Source: an uncultured Collinsella sp.
GTDB taxonomy: Bacteria > Actinomycetota > Coriobacteriia > Coriobacteriales > Coriobacteriaceae
Direction: 5' to 3'
Length of the DNA: 31,662 bases
Assembly (NCBI GenBank): GCA_905207425.1
Contig: CAJLLB010000006.1
Span: 1 to 31,662, forward strand
Every line of letters starts with the position of its first letter. The stretch's first letter is position 1. Shown here piece after piece: positions 7,812 through 24,063 of the stretch. A model generated the notes under the pieces. That model made no database searches and was not told the DNA's origin. It was given only the letters and a program-made list of their open reading frames with translations. The position numbers and the translations under genes are program-made.

Positions 7812-9149
7812 ATGGACGAGATGTTTGCCATTAAATGCCAAAACTGCGGCGGCCCTATGTACTCACACCAGGCTAAACGCAGCTTTGAGTGCGCCTATTG
7901 CGGCACGGTCGTTCCGTGGCAGGCCGATGCGGGGGAGCCCAAGAGCGCCCTGGGCATTCGCCATACGCCACTGACGGTTGTCGATGGACTGCTTAAGCTC
8001 ACCCACGTGTCGCAGCTCGAGCGCCCGGAGGACCCGGACTGGTATTTCTTTAATTCACACTGGCGCAATCAGTCGGTTCTGGAGCATCTGCTGTGGGAGG
8101 ACCGCGGCACGGCGCAGGAGTTCCAAGAAGCCACGCACGTGAGCATTCCCTGCCCCTTCTGTGGAGCGTCCTTTGAAGGCGAGTCCACTCAGCGCGTGCT
8201 TGAGTGCCCGTCCTGCGGAAATAAGATCGGCGTTGCCGACCTACTCAAGCCCGGTACCTTTAGCAAGCGTCTGACCATGGGCGTTGGTGCCGAGTACGTG
8301 CCTGAGCAGGGTATTCCTTGCGAGATAACGCCGCAGCAGGCACGTGCCAACGCGCTGCAGCTGGTGCGCCAGTATCCCGATGCCTTTGCCGGGCACGACG
8401 TGGAAGACGCGATTCAAAATGACATGTCGCTCTTCTACTTCCCCATGGCGCTCGCGGATTTGCGCATGATGGCGTCCTTCCCGGGCAAGGGGCTGAGCAA
8501 GGAGACCCTGGTGTACTACGAGGTGCTCGACTGGGCGTATCCGCGGGCAAACTACCTGGACGTTCGCCTTATGGGCATTTTGGAGCCTTGGGACTTTGCC
8601 AAGGTTGGGCCGTTCGATCCCGCTATGCAGGAAGGCGACTTCCGCGTTGTCTCCGTCGATGCGTCTACCAAGGACCAGGTGGTCATTGATAAGCTGGCGC
8701 TCGACATTGCCGGCAACGATGCCGAGGCGGTGCTGGGGCTCAATAAAAAGAGCATCCGCACCTGGGCGCGCAAGGCTCGCAAGCATAAGGACGGCCTGGT
8801 GATGGTGCCGGTCTACTTTGTCGATCGCCCGGCGACGGACAGCCGCGATGGCGAGCAGGTGCGCATTGCCGTAAACGGCCAGACGGGCCGCGCGGCCGCG
8901 GCGGTGTTTAGCGACAAGCGTGAGACGCATGTGGTGGCGCCGCTCAACCCGAGTCTGCATCTGTCCAGAGAAAGCACCGTGCACGCCACGCCCATCGAGG
9001 TCAAATACGTTAAATCGCCCTTCCTATACCAGATCGTGCGCCGTGGAGACGGCGAACAGCCGCGTCAGGTGGCAGCGGTTGCCGAGGGTTCCTACCGAGA
9101 AGAAAAGCCCAAACGTCGCGGCCTGCTGGGTGCGCTATTTGGTAAGTAG
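7812..9149 (+). CDS. Double zinc-ribbon protein of unknown function
   Basis: The 445 residues contain two four-cysteine zinc ribbons: C9/C12 with C27/C30, and C114/C117 with C132/C135. A large domain follows with no membrane segment or recognisable catalytic motif. A segment near 325-365 (LVMVPVYFVDRP followed by a V-NGQTGRA strand pair) resembles the VPVYF/YIPYW-type beta region of zinc-ribbon proteins annotated only as TFIIB-type or uncharacterised. The C-terminus is basic (KPKRRGLLGALFGK). ATG at 7812 follows a full AAAGGAGG. Zinc ribbons of this type usually bind nucleic acid or support protein assembly; the true role is not known. The divergent neighbour is a metal exporter, but no functional link can be shown. 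Confidence 0.8.
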   Translation: MDEMFAIKCQNCGGPMYSHQAKRSFECAYCGTVVPWQADAGEPKSALGIRHTPLTVVDGLLKLTHVSQLERPEDPDWYFFNSHWRNQSVLEHLLWEDRGTAQEFQEATHVSIPCPFCGASFEGESTQRVLECPSCGNKIGVADLLKPGTFSKRLTMGVGAEYVPEQGIPCEITPQQARANALQLVRQYPDAFAGHDVEDAIQNDMSLFYFPMALADLRMMASFPGKGLSKETLVYYEVLDWAYPRANYLDVRLMGILEPWDFAKVGPFDPAMQEGDFRVVSVDASTKDQVVIDKLALDIAGNDAEAVLGLNKKSIRTWARKARKHKDGLVMVPVYFVDRPATDSRDGEQVRIAVNGQTGRAAAAVFSDKRETHVVAPLNPSLHLSRESTVHATPIEVKYVKSPFLYQIVRRGDGEQPRQVAAVAEGSYREEKPKRRGLLGALFGK

Positions 9150-9417
9150 GGGAGTGGTGTCAGTTGGCGCTGCGATCCGATAGCTAGAGGAACGGGGCAG
9201 CTCGCAGGAGTGCGGACTGTCGTCTGATTGTTTGAGGGTGCCAGATGTAAATAATCGGTGGAGCGGCTGCAAAAGAGCCGTCTCGCTGGGTAAAATCAGG
9301 ATGTGCCGCGGAACCCGCTCCTCAGCTAGTCACACTTCGGAAGCGCGGGCAACGCAGGTATTATCGTCTAAAGGGCCGGCTGCAACCGGCCCTTTTTATG
9401 ACTCCCTTCGCTATCCG
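9150..9417. other. Gene-free stretch with possible RNA structure
   Basis: No convincing gene lies between the zinc-ribbon stop and the 30-residue ORF. Several inverted repeats occur: GGAGCGG (9260-9266) with CCGCTCC (9315-9321), with a nested CGGCT/AGCCG hairpin, then the strong terminator at 9371-9397. A short structured transcript running into that terminator is possible but unproven. Confidence 0.4.
9371..9397 (+). terminator. Strong rho-independent terminator
   Basis: AAGGGCCGG, loop CTGCAA, CCGGCCCTT followed by TTT. It lies more than 200 bases after the zinc-ribbon gene, so it may end that transcript or a separate small RNA. On the minus strand it follows the 30-residue ORF, with a shorter T run. 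Confidence 0.8.
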
Positions 9418-10762: not shown

Positions 10763-11812
10763 CTATCCTTGTGCTTCGCCATTAGTCGCTTCGTTGATGG
10801 CGCGGTACTCGGCACTCAGCTCGCGCGCCAGCTCTTCCTTACTTGGAAGATACGGCAGGTATTTGGCGGCAAACACTTGGTCGTTGTCTTCGGGCAGCGT
10901 GTACTCGACAATCGAATCGCTTTTGTCCGCGCAGAGCACGATGCCTATGGGCGGATTGTCGCCTTCGTTCATGAGCTCGCGCGTGTAGTAGTTCACATAC
11001 ATTTGCATCTGGCCCAAGTCCTGGTGCGTAAGATCGTCCGTCTTAAGGTCGATAAGCACGAAGCAGCGCATCAGATAGTTGTAAAACACAAGGTCAATAT
11101 AGAAATGGCGCCCATCAAAGGTGATGCGCTTTTGGCGCGCCTCGAAAGCGAAGCCACGGCCAAGCTCCAGTAGGAACTTCTGAAGATGTGTGATGAGCGC
11201 CTGCTCTAGATCGCTCTCGCGAAACGCAGTATCGTCCGAGAAACCTAAAAACTCCAGTACATATGGGTCGCGGATGATATCCTCGGGGCGACGAGCCGGG
11301 GCGCTCTTCTGGATTTCTTGGGCGGCGGCCTCCTTGTCCTTGCTGGCAAGCAGGCGCTCGCGGAACATGGTGTTGATCTGGCGCTCGAGCTGACGCGTGC
11401 TCCAGCGAGAGTCAGCGCATTCGTTCATGTACCAGGCGCGAGCTTCGGGGTCGGGAATGCGCATCAGCCTGCGGTAATGAGTCCAGCTCAATTCGCTACG
11501 CAGTGCGTCGCGAATTGGAAACGCAAGAAAGAACTGACGCATATTGCGAAGGTTTGCGATGCCAAAGCCTCTTCCGAAATCCGCTGTAAGCCTTCTGGAG
11601 AGGCCCGCAATCAATGCCTCTCCATATGCTGCGCGCTCCTCTCCACCCTGTTCATCAACAATACTCTTGCCGATTTCCCAATATGCCTCAACCATCGCAA
11701 AGTTAACGGCGGTATAGGCCTTGTCGCGAGCGGCGTTGAGAATCGAGGAAACCTGCTTGTAAAAACCTTCGGGCACGATTGCCGATTCTCCACGGTTTAC
11801 CAGTTCGCCCAT
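10763..11812 (-). CDS. YhcG/DUF1016 family PD-(D/E)XK nuclease
   Basis: The 349 residues match the YhcG family: an N-terminal DUF1016 region (about 15-165, with YWEIGKSIV and the FGRGFGIANLRNMRQF segment) and a C-terminal PD-(D/E)XK nuclease fold (about 175-335). Likely catalytic residues are E204, D240 (YIDLVFYN) and the D255-L-K257 of FVLIDLKT. Homologues are found near restriction-modification and other defence genes and are presumed DNA-binding nucleases. I chose ATG at 11812; GTG at 11815 is equally possible. It heads a same-strand cluster with the ADP-ribosylglycohydrolase and small protein. No methyltransferase or specificity gene is present. Confidence 0.92.
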   Translation of the reverse strand: MGELVNRGESAIVPEGFYKQVSSILNAARDKAYTAVNFAMVEAYWEIGKSIVDEQGGEERAAYGEALIAGLSRRLTADFGRGFGIANLRNMRQFFLAFPIRDALRSELSWTHYRRLMRIPDPEARAWYMNECADSRWSTRQLERQINTMFRERLLASKDKEAAAQEIQKSAPARRPEDIIRDPYVLEFLGFSDDTAFRESDLEQALITHLQKFLLELGRGFAFEARQKRITFDGRHFYIDLVFYNYLMRCFVLIDLKTDDLTHQDLGQMQMYVNYYTRELMNEGDNPPIGIVLCADKSDSIVEYTLPEDNDQVFAAKYLPYLPSKEELARELSAEYRAINEATNGEAQG

Positions 11813-11934
11813 CACTGTCGCCCCACTTTCCTCTTGTGGAATGCATCTTTATCGCATTTAGTTTAAAGCCTCGCGCGGACACGAATTGCTGTGCTGTCTG
11901 ACATCTTCGCATGGGGCCTTGAGGTGGTTAAAAT

Positions 11935-18989: not shown

Positions 18990-19170
18990 ATCGATGGCCT
19001 AGATGGTGGTGCGGAGACGCACGAATGCGCGGTTTTCCTGCGCGTTTGGGAGAATCGGGGTGCAAGTCCCCGGCTGTACCAGTAACCGTAATTCCTCTTG
19101 GCCCGGGATGGTCGCGTTGCAGATCGGACGGCGCGCCCGGGTCGGTAAGGTTAAGTCGGATCGCCTCCCA
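18990..19170 (+). ncRNA. Cobalamin riboswitch
   Basis: Several conserved parts of the B12 aptamer are visible in order. A GTGCG-GAGA-CGCAC hairpin (19009-19022) is followed by TTGGGAGAATC, then CGGGG-TGCAAGT-CCCCG (19056-19072), GGCTGTACCAGTAACCGTAA (19071-19090), a long variable arm, and a closing AAGTCGGATCGCC (19152-19164) that matches the B12-box end. The TGCAAGTCCCCGGCTG core and the CAGTAACCGTAA segment are the strongest evidence. No T-rich terminator follows; instead a GCGGC/GCCGC hairpin and the Shine-Dalgarno lie downstream, suggesting control of translation, with B12 binding turning the genes off. The DUF4430 products downstream agree with this. Confidence 0.85.
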
Positions 19171-19235
19171 TCTTGCATGCGGCTGCGGCGTATGCCGCCG
19201 GTGTGCATAGGGCTCTGGAGGGAAGGGGGACCCCG

Positions 19236-22200
19236 ATGGGGGAACTCGAGCGTAACATGCGCGATGACGTGGGGCAGCCGCTGGGCAATGCTCCAAGTAC
19301 AGACAATGGGGGACAAATGGATATGTTTGAGGACGAGCGCGAGCGCGCCTCGCTGCATCGCCGTGGCGCAATTGCGCGCGGCGTAGCCAAGCGCGGCCTG
19401 GTGGCATTCCTGGCCTTCGCGATGGCCCTTGGCACCACACCGGCTCAGCTGTGGGCCGAGGGCGCCGAGGGCATTGCCGAGGCTGTGGCTCAGGCTGCGA
19501 CGCCGGGCGAGGACGCAGCGCTTGCGGGCGGTGCCGCTGAGCAGAGCGGCGCCGAGTTTTCGGATTCTGGGAGCGCGTCTACAACTAGTGCCGCCACAAC
19601 TGAGGCGGCAACTGGCGACGAAGGCTCGGCGACAGGGGAGAGCCCTGCCACGAGCGAGCAGTCTTCGACGGCATCCGCTGGCCAAGCAGGATCTGCCGCC
19701 GCGGCTGCCGTCCAGACAGAGAACCCGACAGAAACCGGCGATGTCGCCAAGAAGCAAGTCGAGGTCTCGTTCTCGATTATCGGCACCGATGCCGACGGCA
19801 AGGCTCAGACCTGGGTGGCACCTACGCAACTCAAGCTCGACGAGGGCGCGACGGCTGCGGATGCCTTCGTTAAGCTGCAGCAGAAGACGGGCTTCAAGGC
19901 GGATTACGATCCGAACACGGCATACGGTTTCTACCTCAAAAGCATCACATCCCCGAGCGATGGCCGTACGCTTGCCTTCGATCCGGCGACTTATGCCTAC
20001 TGGCAGCTGTTCGTCGACGGCGCGTCTTCCTCGGTTGGCGCGAGCAGCGTCAAGCTCACCCAAGGGCAGAAGATTGAGTTTGCCTATACGGCTGGTAGCG
20101 CGTCCCCTGTCGTTAAGGACCAGGTTGCCGCAAATGTGACCGTCATTGGTCGCGATGCCCAGGGCAAGACTCAGACTTGGGTCGATAACGCGCAGTATGT
20201 GGTGACGTCCGGTTCGAGCGCGCTTGACCTTACGAAGGCCGCGCTCGAGGCGAATGATATTGACGCCGTTGCTGCGGGCTCCTTCATTCTGAGCCTTAAG
20301 TACAACGGTGTTGAGCTGGGTACGCCCCAAGATTATTCGACCTATTGGCAACTGTTCATCAACGGCAAGTCGAGTGACTATACGGCGGACAATGTCACCA
20401 TCCATGCCGGCGATACCGTTACGTGGTTCTACGGTGGCTGGGGCGACCAGCTGCCCTCCGATTCTGTCCATGCTTCTGTTCAGGTTCTCGGTAAGGACAA
20501 GGACGGCAAGCAGCAGGTTTGGGCTTCGACGGGCCAGACGAGTCTCAAGGCAGGCTCCACTGCTAAGGATCTCCTTGAGCAGACCGGCCTTAAGCTCGAT
20601 GCTAGCGAATCGTCTTGGGGCTGGTTCCTCAACGGCATTTATTCGCCGTTCGATGGTAAGTCCTATGGCTGGGATGCTGCGACCAGTAGCTATTGGCGCT
20701 TCTACGTAAATGGCAAGTTCGCCGACGTTGGCGCCGGTGCCTACGAGCTCCATGAGGGCGATGCCATCACCTTTATGTATGGTGCTGACGCCGATGCCCT
20801 TCCTGGCCAGGTGCTTGGGTCTGTCGATGTTATCGGTCCCGATGTCAACGGCAACAATACTCGCTGGGGCTCGGCAAGCAGTGTTTCTTTGCCTGAAGGC
20901 TCTACTGCCCAGAACCTTATTGAGACGGTCCTGAAGGCCAAGGGCGTTACGTACAACGGCTCCCAGAGTGGTGAGTACTGGTTCCTGAATTCCATTACTT
21001 CGCCGTTTGATCACAAGTCGTATGGTTGGGATGCTGCGACCAATAAATATTGGCATCTGTATATCAACGGAGAGTCCTCCTTACTCTGCGCCAATCAGAT
21101 TACGCTCAAGAGCGGCGATAAGGTTACGCTTGCCTATACCACCGACGATTCGGCCATGCCCGATCCCGACAAGATTGTCGTGGACCCGGGTGCGACGACT
21201 CCTGATTGGGATGCCGAGTGGGCCGGCTACGGCAACAGTGGCAACGGTTCGACCGTAACGGATGCCAAGACGCCTGCGCAGGCCGCCGGTCTTAAGTGGG
21301 CCTTCGATTGGAAGGCCGAGTCTGGTCAGCAGTATGCCAACTGCAGCGAGCCCGTTATCGCTAACGGCTTTGTGTACATCGCGACCGAGAACGAGCTCAT
21401 TAAGATCGATTCGTCCACGGGCAAAAAGGTTGCCTCTGCGCCGCTTGCCTCCAAGGTGAGCTATACCTCTCGTCCGATCTATACCAATGGCCTTATCATC
21501 GTTCCGCTCAACGGCGGTGCGGTCCAGGCGATTACTGCAGACAAGCTGATCTGCAAGTGGCTGACGCCTGGTTTGACGGACTTGACGCAGAGCTCCTGCA
21601 CCGTCGTTTCGGACGGCGAGTACGTCTATGTAGGCACGGTCGATATTTCGTATGACGAGAATTACAACGCGACCTACGGCAACGGCTCCCTTTCGCGCAT
21701 TAAGATTGCCACGGGCGAAGTTTCTTGGCAGAACATCGATCCTGCTGAGGGCTATTACTGGACTGGTGCTGCGCTGACGGATAAGTACACCATTGTTCCT
21801 ACGAGCGCGGGTACGCTTAAGTGCATTGATAAGACGACGGGCGATGTCGTTTCGACCATGAAGCTCGGCGCTGTTGCAAATGCCGATTGCATTGCCGATC
21901 CGTCCAATGGTTCGACCTTCTATCAGATGACGCACGACGGAAAGCTCCATGTGATTTCGCTCTCGGCGAAGGGCGTACTGAGCGAGCAGAAGACGGTTGA
22001 TCTGGGGCTTACGAATAATCTGAGCGCCCCTGCGGTGTCTGGTGACAATCTGATTGTCGGCGGACAGACGGCTACGGGCTCTGCTCTGGTTCTCTATAAC
22101 CTGAAGACGGGTAAGATCACGATGGTCGCTGCTGCCGACGGCAAGGCGCTGCCGGCTGGCCTCAACGGTATTGCTGCTACTCCGCTGGTGAGTGTTCAGG

Positions 22201-23102
22201 GCGGCAAGACCTATGTGTACTTCACCGTTAACAGCGCGGATAGCAAGGATTACGTCAACTACTCTGCTGGTGGTGGCGTGTATCGCTATACGCTCGGCGA
22301 TGCAGAGGCGACGCAGATTTATGATGCGGCTGGCCATTACCAGTACTGTGACTCTCCGGTCATTGCCGATGCATCTGGCAACCTGTACTACATCAATGAC
22401 TCGGGCACGCTGTTCAAGCTTGGGGCCGTTGAGTCTTGGACGGTTGCCTTTAATTCCAACGGCGGGTCTGCTTGCGATACTAAGTTTGTTGCTACGGCCG
22501 ATGGCAAGCTGGTTAAGCCGGCCGATCCGACGCGCGATGGCTACACTTTCGGCGGTTGGTTCACCGATGAGGCTTGCGTGCAGGCGTATGACTTTAGCAC
22601 GTCGGTGACGGCCGATCTGACGCTGTATGCCAAGTGGACCAAGAATGCCGTTAACCCTGGCGGTAATGGCGGCGCTGGTTCGAATGGCGGCGGCGGTTCT
22701 GGTACCGGTACTGGATCCGGCACTGGCGCTGGCACTGGCACGGGTTCCGGCTCCGGCTCGAAGGGCGGCGCTGTCGCCCCGGGTCATAAGCCGACGACCA
22801 AGACGACGGTGTCGACCAAGACCGAGACCAAGGACAACAAGTCCGACAAGAAGGACTCCGATAAGTCCGATAAGAAGGACGAGAAGAAGTCTGACAAGAA
22901 GGACAGCAAGTCCGACAAGAAGTCCGACAAGAAGTCCGATTCCAAGTCCGATACGGGTGCTGCTTCTACGACCACTGCTAAGAAGTCCTCTAGTGCTTCC
23001 GAGCAGGAGACTAGCACCAATCCGCTCGCCATTGTTGGCGTTGCCGCCGGCGTCATCGGACTCGCCATCGTCGGCATGTTCGTGTTCACCAAACGTCGGT
23101 AG
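19236..23102 (+). CDS. Large B12-regulated surface protein: four DUF4430 repeats, beta-propeller, InlB repeat, membrane anchor
   Basis: The 1288 residues run in order as follows. An extended signal peptide has its hydrophobic core at about 54-66 and probable cleavage after QLWA (74). A Ser/Thr/Ala-rich linker follows. Four DUF4430 repeats sit at roughly 172-288, 295-407, 409-522 and 526-645, each with YWxLYINGK-like and GDxVTxxY strands. A PQQ-type beta-propeller (about 680-1068) has VYIATENELIKID and VYVGTVD blades. One InlB/Listeria-Bacteroides B repeat (about 1069-1133) has DGYTFGGWFTDE and LYAKW. A Gly/Thr linker, a Lys/Ser/Asp stalk (about 1200-1243) and a C-terminal helix with KRR complete it. 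There is no LPxTG motif, so a membrane anchor is likely. DUF4430 is the transcobalamin/intrinsic-factor C-terminal fold, hence a corrinoid-binding role is inferred. ATG at 19236 follows GGAGGGAAGGGGG; ATG at 19317 is an alternative. Confidence 0.88.
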   Translation: MGELERNMRDDVGQPLGNAPSTDNGGQMDMFEDERERASLHRRGAIARGVAKRGLVAFLAFAMALGTTPAQLWAEGAEGIAEAVAQAATPGEDAALAGGAAEQSGAEFSDSGSASTTSAATTEAATGDEGSATGESPATSEQSSTASAGQAGSAAAAAVQTENPTETGDVAKKQVEVSFSIIGTDADGKAQTWVAPTQLKLDEGATAADAFVKLQQKTGFKADYDPNTAYGFYLKSITSPSDGRTLAFDPATYAYWQLFVDGASSSVGASSVKLTQGQKIEFAYTAGSASPVVKDQVAANVTVIGRDAQGKTQTWVDNAQYVVTSGSSALDLTKAALEANDIDAVAAGSFILSLKYNGVELGTPQDYSTYWQLFINGKSSDYTADNVTIHAGDTVTWFYGGWGDQLPSDSVHASVQVLGKDKDGKQQVWASTGQTSLKAGSTAKDLLEQTGLKLDASESSWGWFLNGIYSPFDGKSYGWDAATSSYWRFYVNGKFADVGAGAYELHEGDAITFMYGADADALPGQVLGSVDVIGPDVNGNNTRWGSASSVSLPEGSTAQNLIETVLKAKGVTYNGSQSGEYWFLNSITSPFDHKSYGWDAATNKYWHLYINGESSLLCANQITLKSGDKVTLAYTTDDSAMPDPDKIVVDPGATTPDWDAEWAGYGNSGNGSTVTDAKTPAQAAGLKWAFDWKAESGQQYANCSEPVIANGFVYIATENELIKIDSSTGKKVASAPLASKVSYTSRPIYTNGLIIVPLNGGAVQAITADKLICKWLTPGLTDLTQSSCTVVSDGEYVYVGTVDISYDENYNATYGNGSLSRIKIATGEVSWQNIDPAEGYYWTGAALTDKYTIVPTSAGTLKCIDKTTGDVVSTMKLGAVANADCIADPSNGSTFYQMTHDGKLHVISLSAKGVLSEQKTVDLGLTNNLSAPAVSGDNLIVGGQTATGSALVLYNLKTGKITMVAAADGKALPAGLNGIAATPLVSVQGGKTYVYFTVNSADSKDYVNYSAGGGVYRYTLGDAEATQIYDAAGHYQYCDSPVIADASGNLYYINDSGTLFKLGAVESWTVAFNSNGGSACDTKFVATADGKLVKPADPTRDGYTFGGWFTDEACVQAYDFSTSVTADLTLYAKWTKNAVNPGGNGGAGSNGGGGSGTGTGSGTGAGTGTGSGSGSKGGAVAPGHKPTTKTTVSTKTETKDNKSDKKDSDKSDKKDEKKSDKKDSKSDKKSDKKSDSKSDTGAASTTTAKKSSSASEQETSTNPLAIVGVAAGVIGLAIVGMFVFTKRR
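22838..22960 (+). repeat. Lys/Ser/Asp coding repeats (stalk)
   Basis: Irregular repeats of AAGTCCGACAAGAAG and close variants encode a KSDKKD-type chain near the C-terminus of the large surface protein. This highly charged, unfolded segment probably spans the cell wall. Near-identical codons suggest recent slippage or recombination. Confidence 0.8.
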
Positions 23103-23111
23103 GTGAGGGCT

Positions 23112-24002
23112 GTGTCCAATAAGTCCAAGGACGCTGACCCCAAGCAACCAGATTCCTCGTTCATTCAGTTCGACGATGCAAAGCAACAGGGCGCCGTTTC
23201 GGCGGCGTCCGCCCCTCGACGGAAGGCGCTCCTTGGCGTTCTGACTGCCGCGTGCACCATTCTGATCGTCGTCTCGCTGGGCTTTGTCCATCCCTCCGAG
23301 AGTGGCGCCTGGTCCATTGACTGGATCATTCAGACCGTGACGGGGGAGAGCGTCGTCACCAAGGACACCAAGGCGTCTGGCTCGTCTGCCGCTTCGGGCG
23401 AGGCCAGTTCCAAGGATTCCAAGTCATCGAATGACGCAAAAGATGAGTCCAAGTCCAAGGACGATTCCGAGTCTTCGCACAAGGAATCGGATAAAAGCTC
23501 GGATAGCAAGAAGTCTGAGGACCAGGACGGCAAGAAGTCTGGCGATAAATCTGCTGCCCAAAATACGGGAGCCGGTGATACTTCCAATGTGTCTGGCGGT
23601 GCTTCTTCGGGCGGTGGCCAGTCGTCTAATGGAGCCTCATCCTCTAATGGTGGAAACGCCTCCTCGGGCGGCCAGAGCGGCTCACAGGAGTCCAACTACG
23701 TTACGGTGACGGTTTCGGTCACATCGAGCGCTGTGGGCAATCCTGTGTCCTCTGGTGGCACCTTTACCTTTAACGAAGGTGCTACCGTCTACGATGCCCT
23801 GTGCGCGCTGGGCCTTTCTGTCAACGCACACGGCTCATCGTACGGCACGTATGTTTCTGCGATTGGTGGTTTGGCCGAGAAACAGTACGGCGGCACGAGC
23901 GGCTGGATGTATTCCGTCAACGGCAGAACGCCCATGACGGCCTGCAGTAACTACGTTCTCTCCAATGGCGACAACGTGGTCTGGTATTACGTTACAGGCT
24001 AG
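23112..24002 (+). CDS. Membrane-anchored single DUF4430 protein
   Basis: The 296 residues comprise a cytoplasmic N-terminus of about 40 residues, one hydrophobic helix (LLGVLTAACTILIVVSLGFV, about 40-60) that acts as a signal anchor, a long Ser/Lys/Asp/Gly-rich stalk (about 85-195), and a C-terminal DUF4430 domain (about 198-296) with GATVYDALCALGL, SGWMYSVNGR and LSNGDNVVWYYV. It starts directly after the large surface protein: the upstream TAG ends at 23102 and AGGTGAGG overlaps it. I prefer GTG at 23112 (MSNKSKDADPK) to GTG at 23103 because of this spacing. It shares the B12 riboswitch transcript, so it may receive the ligand from the larger protein and pass it to an uptake transporter. 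It lacks any enzyme motif. Confidence 0.85.
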   Translation: MSNKSKDADPKQPDSSFIQFDDAKQQGAVSAASAPRRKALLGVLTAACTILIVVSLGFVHPSESGAWSIDWIIQTVTGESVVTKDTKASGSSAASGEASSKDSKSSNDAKDESKSKDDSESSHKESDKSSDSKKSEDQDGKKSGDKSAAQNTGAGDTSNVSGGASSGGGQSSNGASSSNGGNASSGGQSGSQESNYVTVTVSVTSSAVGNPVSSGGTFTFNEGATVYDALCALGLSVNAHGSSYGTYVSAIGGLAEKQYGGTSGWMYSVNGRTPMTACSNYVLSNGDNVVWYYVTG

Positions 24003-24022: not shown

Positions 24023-24063
24023 AAACGGGCGGTTCGGACAAACATCCGGGCCGCCCGTTTTCG
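24023..24063 (+). terminator. Terminator of the DUF4430 operon
   Basis: AAACGGGCGG (24023-24032) pairs with CCGCCCGTTT (24051-24060), with further weak pairing inside, and TTTTC ends the stem. It is 20 bases after the stop. Confidence 0.85.

Follow-up and report, generated by a model that had tools for sequence, protein, structure and literature searches.

A candidate cobalamin-repressible operon for corrinoid capture by DUF4430 surface proteins in Collinsella

We analysed a 31,662-nucleotide stretch of DNA from an uncultured Collinsella sp. (contig CAJLLB010000006.1; hereafter the window), in which a leader RNA of the cobalamin riboswitch type precedes a two-gene operon on the + strand that encodes two surface proteins, P1 and then P2. 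We consider it probable that the P1/P2 operon is a vitamin B12-repressible corrinoid capture system. At high intracellular cobalamin, the leader RNA would bind cobalamin and translation of both genes would be blocked; at low cobalamin, P1 and P2 would be made. P1, with its C terminus as membrane anchor, would extend four beta-grasp domains and a beta-propeller into or beyond the cell wall and would bind corrinoids at or beyond the wall. P2, whose one domain would sit close to the membrane on a tether of low complexity, would receive the corrinoid and present it to a CbrT-like energy-coupling factor (ECF) transporter. The gene for this transporter appears to lie elsewhere in most Collinsella examined; many other Coriobacteriia and some Clostridia have it within the operon itself. 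Regulation by RNA, the protein fold, the layout of the operon, and the homology of the transporter agree on one candidate system, with domains of about 100 residues, for Coriobacteriia and some Clostridia.

The leader RNA

The aptamer and its 3' box occupy positions 18994-19177 on the + strand (aaGUCGGAucGCC). They were recognized with a covariance model (R1), by a match to the AdoCbl-II family, and by covariation. R1 was built from 29 aligned leaders of orthologous genes, the window leader among them (alignment A3; 31 leaders were collected, and L190 and L197 were excluded for length), and it places the window leader, a member of its own training set, at 175.6 bits. AdoCbl-II (RF01689) matches positions 19036-19146 (+) with 30.5 bits (E = 3.9e-5; E-value threshold, 601 bases searched). 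The consensus of the 29 leaders has 25 base pairs, 17 of which show two-sided changes in at least one sequence. In these leaders 94.4% of cells pair, compared with 81.6% in shuffles and 36-49% when the partners were slid, and none of 500 shuffles equalled the observed value on any of five covariation measures. Allowing up to three mismatches, we found a single copy of a 20-base core motif in the window (expected 0.00).

Conservation of the leader was assessed at 80 loci, which represent 80 of 170 confirmed relatives and were all reached via one propeller motif. R1 matches upstream of the gene at 52 loci, 24 of them outside the training set. At 12 of 16 further loci the cobalamin family RF00174 scores over its gathering threshold about 600 bases or less upstream of the same gene, and so orthologous positions hold riboswitches that Rfam accepts. 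Together, R1 and Rfam account for a cobalamin-type riboswitch at 64 of the 80 loci. The 16 uncounted loci include four that are truncated upstream (L165, L189, L205, and L215), one with a match on the opposite strand (L232), one with nothing at gathering (L210), one outside the Rfam scan (L220), and nine with Olsenella-type leaders (L176, L177, L181, L192, L196, L202, L204, L207, and L211). These nine resemble a diverged cobalamin riboswitch (GAGGGCA ... AAAAGGAUUCCGG ... CUCCGGA ... AACUGUG ... UGCCCUC; alignment A6). Four of the nine were scanned without a match, Rfam being silent on L202, L192, and L176 even at E ≤ 1, and an automatic fold of seven of them was unconvincing, with an unfavourable covariation term.

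Within the genus we compared 18 genomes, the closest of which (G001) has 43% of sampled 31-mers in common with the window. At E ≤ 0.1, RF01689 gave exactly one match in each of the 18, over the cut-off in two (G014 and G015). As this loose search matches control genomes too, it is position that carries the argument. Coordinates compared by hand place the match directly upstream of P1 in 14 of the 18 genomes; in G009, G016, and G017 it precedes a lone DUF4430 gene with ECF genes behind it; and in G007 it lies on a separate contig whose downstream sequence resembles the start of P1. Every one of the 18 genomes has the riboswitch at its DUF4430 locus, G007 across a contig break.

The conserved core, the covarying helices, and the position before the gene support assignment of the leader to the vitamin B12-sensing type of riboswitch. 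A preliminary description of this DNA had claimed a B12-type riboswitch before the two genes, a claim borne out by the sub-gathering AdoCbl-II match, the covariation, and the orthologous leaders that pass. The Rfam check that it proposed gave a divided answer, negative at the gathering score and positive in the form of a full-length AdoCbl-II match. We considered whether the leader might be a non-cobalamin RNA, given that it was missed at gathering; the full-length sub-threshold match, the covariation, and the passing orthologues led us to reject this. The leader is like RF00174 and RF01689 in its core and its position; it differs from them in scoring below gathering and in having a conserved CUGG by the Shine-Dalgarno sequence and a start-codon hairpin.

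These last two elements make up the candidate expression platform (19213-19247, +), in which CUCUGG stands beside the Shine-Dalgarno-like GGAGGGAAGG and is followed by a CCCC-gAUG-GGGG hairpin at the start codon. In all 31 collected leaders, which include close relatives and hence are not 31 independent cases, CCAG is found in the aptamer loop and CUGG between the 3' box and the start. A Shine-Dalgarno-like sequence follows CUGG in 29 of them, and a start-codon stem of at least four pairs is present in 26, compared with a mean of 8.1 and a maximum of 15 in 300 single-base shuffles. The arms of the hairpin vary among species (CCCC/GGGG in the window, and UCCG/CGGA, AUCUG/CAGAU, and GACCC/GGGUC elsewhere). 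The combination of CUGG and start-codon hairpin suggests control at the level of translation. We infer that in the OFF step the loop CCAG would dock onto the CUGG that adjoins the Shine-Dalgarno sequence while the hairpin holds the start codon. The CCAG-CUGG pairing may be the equivalent of a known loop-loop contact in cobalamin riboswitches; as both partners are invariant, the contact yields no covariation support. A different kissing pair, between a UGCAAG loop and CUUGCA at 19172-19177, is present in the window and was discarded in favour of CCAG-CUGG, being missing, by eye, from other leaders, among them L173 and L194.

Architecture of P1 and P2

P1 (19236-23102, +) has 1288 amino acids when read from the ATG at 19236. 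Its open reading frame (ORF) is open from a TTG at 19173, and the ATG, chosen for its position behind the Shine-Dalgarno-like sequence, is the more likely start. P2 (23103-24002, +) has 299 amino acids. The abutting of the two genes, evident from the ORF list, had been pointed out in the preliminary description, as had the presence of five DUF4430 domains, and Pfam agrees with that count. PF14478 (cut-off 23.8 bits) matches four stretches of P1 (157.8 bits, E = 9.1e-47) and one of P2 (67.6 bits, E = 1.3e-18). With a local DUF4430 hidden Markov model, the P1 domains were located at 19845-20090 (40.0 bits), 20211-20432 (31.6 bits), 20553-20780 (78.8 bits; also the best Pfam stretch), and 20898-21140 (40.5 bits), all on the + strand.

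The domain of P2 (23778-23993, +) has a beta-grasp fold that includes a hairpin insert after the helix. As modelled, it folds like the beta domain of transcobalamin, and the kinship between DUF4430 and transcobalamin that had been put forward from the sequence is thus matched, for the P2 domain only, by a common fold. The P1 domains have a longer segment after the helix than the P2 domain does (alignment A1). In the animal carriers, an alpha/alpha toroid and a beta domain sandwich B12. Once the domains assigned in P1, its linkers, and its anchor are accounted for, no stretch large enough for a toroid is left, and the present system differs from transcobalamin, haptocorrin, and intrinsic factor in that no toroid was found, the beta domains are serial, and the proteins are membrane-anchored. 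The isolated beta domain of transcobalamin binds cobalamin in crystals, and cobinamide as well, according to PMC5599065, which makes a beta-only capture protein reasonable.

The preliminary description treated the DUF4430 domains as the only ligand-binding candidates, which overlooked a PQQ/BamB-type beta-propeller, probably of eight blades, in P1 (21204-22433, +; PQQ_2, 61.2 bits, cut-off 27.6). Its AlphaFold2 model, which also contains DUF4430 domain 4, has a mean predicted local distance difference test score (pLDDT) of 94.3, and YxaL, BamB, and eight-bladed designs are the closest among its best 50 fold matches. Alignment A4 comprises 66 of 69 segments plus the window, and alignment A5 comprises 59 of 67. 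Sixteen columns are invariant across 67 propeller sequences, from loci that were themselves found using the propeller. A 407-residue segment of the P1 propeller is identical to one database protein and has 97-98% identity to proteins of Collinsella sp. A database search with the propeller (7990 candidates scored) gave no diversity, as the best 120 of 1304 matches were all 97-100% identical. The propeller is followed by a Listeria-Bacteroides (Flg_new) repeat (22440-22634, +; PF09479, E = 1e-20).

The strongest hydrophobic stretch of P1 is at its C terminus (membrane anchor, 23031-23087, +; mean hydropathy 2.61), and that of P2 is near its N terminus (membrane anchor, 23232-23288, +; mean hydropathy 2.47), in agreement with the opposite anchoring described earlier. 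A further hydrophobic stretch in P1 (19395-19451, +; mean hydropathy 1.51 over 19 residues) is probably a signal peptide. A pattern search found the sortase-type motif LPxT[GAN] in neither protein. The P2 orthologues L228, L236, and L239 of Clostridia have N termini that look lipoprotein-like by eye and were not flagged by a scripted lipobox pattern.

Two P1 orthologues of the same genus, L044:6223-13581 (-) and L035:4591-11217 (+), have 2452 and 2208 amino acids, so the length and repeat number of P1 vary widely inside one genus; the L044 protein carries aBig_2 and three DUF4430 domains. One relative of the P1 segment, with 28% identity, is encoded on a contig of a viral collection (L241, IMGVR_UViG_2799112468_000001).

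The transporter partner and B12 metabolism in relatives

We counted linkage to ECF genes by tblastn (E ≤ 1e-5, same strand, one match per ECF part and locus). All three ECF parts lie downstream on the same strand in 31 of the 80 loci: in none of the 33 loci titled Collinsella or Enorma and in 31 of the 47 others. G019 has, in this order, a riboswitch that RF01689 scores over the cut-off (42.3 bits), P1, P2, an EcfT-like gene, fused EcfAA, and EcfS. A comparable set is present in Cuneatibacter caecimuris (Bacillota), with an RF00174 riboswitch, a P1 carrying PQQ_2 and DUF4430, a lipoprotein-like P2, and EcfT-, EcfAA-, and EcfS-like parts. For three S-components, two of them linked to the operon and one unlinked, the best match in the PDB was 6FNP (G001, E = 1.3e-5; G019, E = 3.4e-9; Cuneatibacter, E = 6.2e-6), which is ECF-CbrT, a vitamin B12 transporter of Lactobacillus delbrueckii (PMC5997447). 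The ECF systems found here have their own T and A parts. They also differ from CbrT in being accompanied by one or two DUF4430 proteins; the parts of PMC5997447 drawn on here describe no extracellular binding protein.

EcfS and EcfT are both matched in every one of the 18 same-genus genomes, and in 15 of them these matches lie away from the DUF4430 locus; in G001, for example, the ECF genes are at 1.79 Mb and P1 and P2 at 0.96 Mb of one contig. The likely uptake partner of the window operon is a candidate CbrT-like ECF transporter encoded outside the window, and the operon has probably lost its link to the transporter and not the partner itself, if the genome of the window is like its relatives. 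This fits the earlier expectation that the partner lies elsewhere. The claim that the window has no homologue of BtuF or BtuCD also holds for the 20 window proteins that were scanned with Pfam. We rejected BtuF/BtuCD as the partner on that result and because the linked genes of the relatives are ECF genes. In G016, an EcfT-like part, two ATPase domains, and a CbrT-like S-component are fused in one protein of 1046 amino acids (L047:8406-11546, +), whose gene stands behind a riboswitch match and the gene for a DUF4430 protein that begins like a lipoprotein; the arrangement in G009 resembles this fusion, but the contig ends.

A DUF4430 match was found in 26 of 29 relatives. Among the 18 same-genus genomes, 16 encode a protein with a B12-binding domain and eight have CbiD, a protein of cobalamin synthesis; the other 10 have the locus without a CbiD match. 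In five of the eight genomes with CbiD (G001, G003, G004, G011, and G012) a weak RF00174 match (16 bits) lies about 1 kb from CbiD, in a genome scan that scored 60 first-look candidates in most genomes. R1 also matches two regions at cbi loci (16.2 and 16.0 bits, E about 0.03). A second weak cobalamin-like RNA may thus be present at the cbi locus in G001 (L159:8527-8678, -) and G012 (L160:8610-8761, -); the G001 copy lies before a gene whose product is CbiK-like (NCBIfam, E = 4.8e-67, below the cut-off) and begins like a lipoprotein. A 2019 survey (PMC6593275) includes Collinsella aerofaciens among the strains that require B12 and have the complete set of genes for its synthesis; it also describes B12 transport in gut genomes as an open problem.

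Competing explanations and known systems

A number of observations weigh against a B12 capture system, or against parts of it. At gathering scores, Rfam reported zero families of the cobalamin clan (CL00101) in the window; the AdoCbl-II match to the leader, which spans all 81 model positions, is 6 bits under its cut-off of 36.5, and at E ≤ 0.1 this model also matched eight of the 14 control genomes, one of them above the cut-off. Searched as a profile, the P2 domain gave zero transcobalamin matches and matched 3u7z alone, a structure labelled putative metal binding (E = 0.0013), and the alpha/alpha toroid family is not among the Pfam hits of P1, P2, or four longer relatives. EcfT was assigned from its position and homology: Pfam matches neither the G019 copy (L050) nor the G001 copy (L140), and the L051 homologue matches CbiQ with 22.6 bits, below the cut-off of 25. 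No riboswitch of the window type was found in the ECF regions of six same-genus genomes (G001, G002, G006, G008, G014, and G015), three of which were scanned with Rfam as well; unlinked ECF regions gave no cobalamin family in L140, L142, L144, and L145 (Rfam, E ≤ 0.5) and no R1 match in L140-L146 (E ≤ 1), a result that lends no support to co-regulation there. CbiD is present in 8 of 18 same-genus genomes, compared with the usual lack of B12 synthesis genes described in PMC1796856, and two genomes (G006 and G015) have the locus and no match to a B12-binding domain. Corrinoid binding by the system is itself a prediction.

The ligand might be cobinamide, another cobamide, or a precursor rather than complete cobalamin, with the riboswitch sensing the finished cofactor and the DUF4430 variants of P1 providing a haptocorrin-like breadth. 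We regard this as possible and rather doubtful. It would agree with the binding of cobinamide by the lone transcobalamin beta domain (PMC5599065), with the longer post-helix segment of the P1 domains, and with the presence of CbiD in eight genomes that might complete precursors. It fits less well with the 10 genomes that keep the locus without a CbiD match. That ECF-CbrT transports cobalamin (PMC5997447) would also speak for the complete cofactor, but cobinamide is imported by both B12 transporter families too (PMC6593275), and the point does not discriminate. It is unlikely that corrinoids are bound chiefly by the propeller, in the manner of BtuG from Bacteroides, and that the DUF4430 domains merely tether or pass on the ligand. 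BtuG2 is a surface lipoprotein with a beta-propeller that binds B12 with femtomolar affinity (PMC6143338), and the P1 propeller has its invariant columns; against this, BtuG2 is seven-bladed and confined to Bacteroidetes by the same account, and a BtuG-like reading is unsupported by the best 50 fold matches of the P1 propeller, among which BtuG does not figure, although it may rank lower. G009, G016, and G017 combine a riboswitch, one DUF4430 protein, and ECF genes, and the neighbourhoods L039, L047, and L048 have no tblastn match to the P1 segment (E ≤ 1e-5).

P1 is long, tethered, and rich in repeats, with Flg_new and, in relatives, aBig_2 domains. It could be imagined mainly as an adhesin or as a receptor for a host factor such as mucin or a B12 carrier of the host, made merely in response to B12 scarcity; its Ig-like and Flg_new repeats would then be parts of an adhesin. 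The coupling of the operon to an ECF importer in 31 of the 80 loci and the P2 domain's specific fold of the transcobalamin type make this very unlikely. We give about as little credence, or slightly less, to an unrelated ligand or bare metal, for which the fold would reflect ancestry only and riboswitch control would be incidental. The label of 3u7z, the nearest solved bacterial relative, points that way, and other ligands were allowed by a referee and the authors of PMC1796856. Yet a cobalamin riboswitch precedes the operon in loci of two phyla, and the S-component resembles a B12 S-component in three lineages.

The general idea of capture was published in 2007. Burroughs et al. (PMC1796856) named the fold (SLBB) and proposed that transcobalamin-like SLBB proteins of Gram-positive bacteria scavenge B12; they reported that such proteins have signal peptides and anchors, are found fused to propellers and as paired paralogues, and are encoded near CbiO/CbiQ. 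The P1/P2 operon is like that clade in its secreted or anchored proteins, second paralogue, single propeller fusion, and association with CbiO/CbiQ-type genes. Its own additions are the riboswitch, the presence of four domains within a single protein, and, in Collinsella, the separation of the transporter from the operon. The word riboswitch has zero occurrences in the main text of PMC1796856, and its passages on these proteins name no CbrT-type S-component. Neither link was found in the literature searched, and no description of this operon was recognized by title or start of abstract among the papers listed, in a search whose coverage largely lacks subscription journals.

The operon is also like BtuG of gut Bacteroides (PMC6143338) in placing a surface beta-propeller protein beside B12 uptake genes, with capture outside the transporter; unlike BtuG, it has a propeller of the PQQ/BamB/YxaL type, an ECF importer rather than the TonB-dependent BtuB, and DUF4430 domains. 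BtuH of gut Bacteroidetes (PMC8941943) is likewise an accessory B12-binding protein; it is described there as a novel class.

A more specific form of the corrinoid capture system would be a Gram-positive relay from outside to inside, made of transcobalamin-type beta domains and a propeller only, in which P1-P1 or P1-P2 pairs of beta domains, instead of one alpha and one beta domain, clamp one corrinoid and P2 docks on the CbrT-like S-component and unloads it. We offer this form tentatively, as one we would not expect to be correct in full. Were it true, Collinsella could compete in the gut against host carriers and those Bacteroides that bear BtuG, and one bacterial B12-gripping domain would have given rise both to the animal carriers and to this system. 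The regulatory evidence given here adds to the 2007 proposal that the B12-binding domain of the carriers came from a bacterial surface domain (PMC1796856).

Further features of the window include a possible terminator of the two-gene operon at 24025-24061 (+; ACGGGCGG...CCGCCCGTTTT), which was spotted by eye and is absent from the output of a hairpin scan with a loop limit of 8. A Collinsella-1 RNA (RF01700, 215 bits) lies at 9196-9392 (+), about 47 bases 3' of the ORF at 7812-9149; like the identities of the P1 propeller, it marks the DNA as that of a Collinsella. This ORF was considered as TnpB-like after a PF07282 match, and the reading was set aside because its NCBIfam and PDB matches are weak and mostly of the zinc-ribbon type. 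On the opposite strand, positions 10763-11815 (-) encode a member of the YhcG/DUF1016 family of PDDEXK nucleases.

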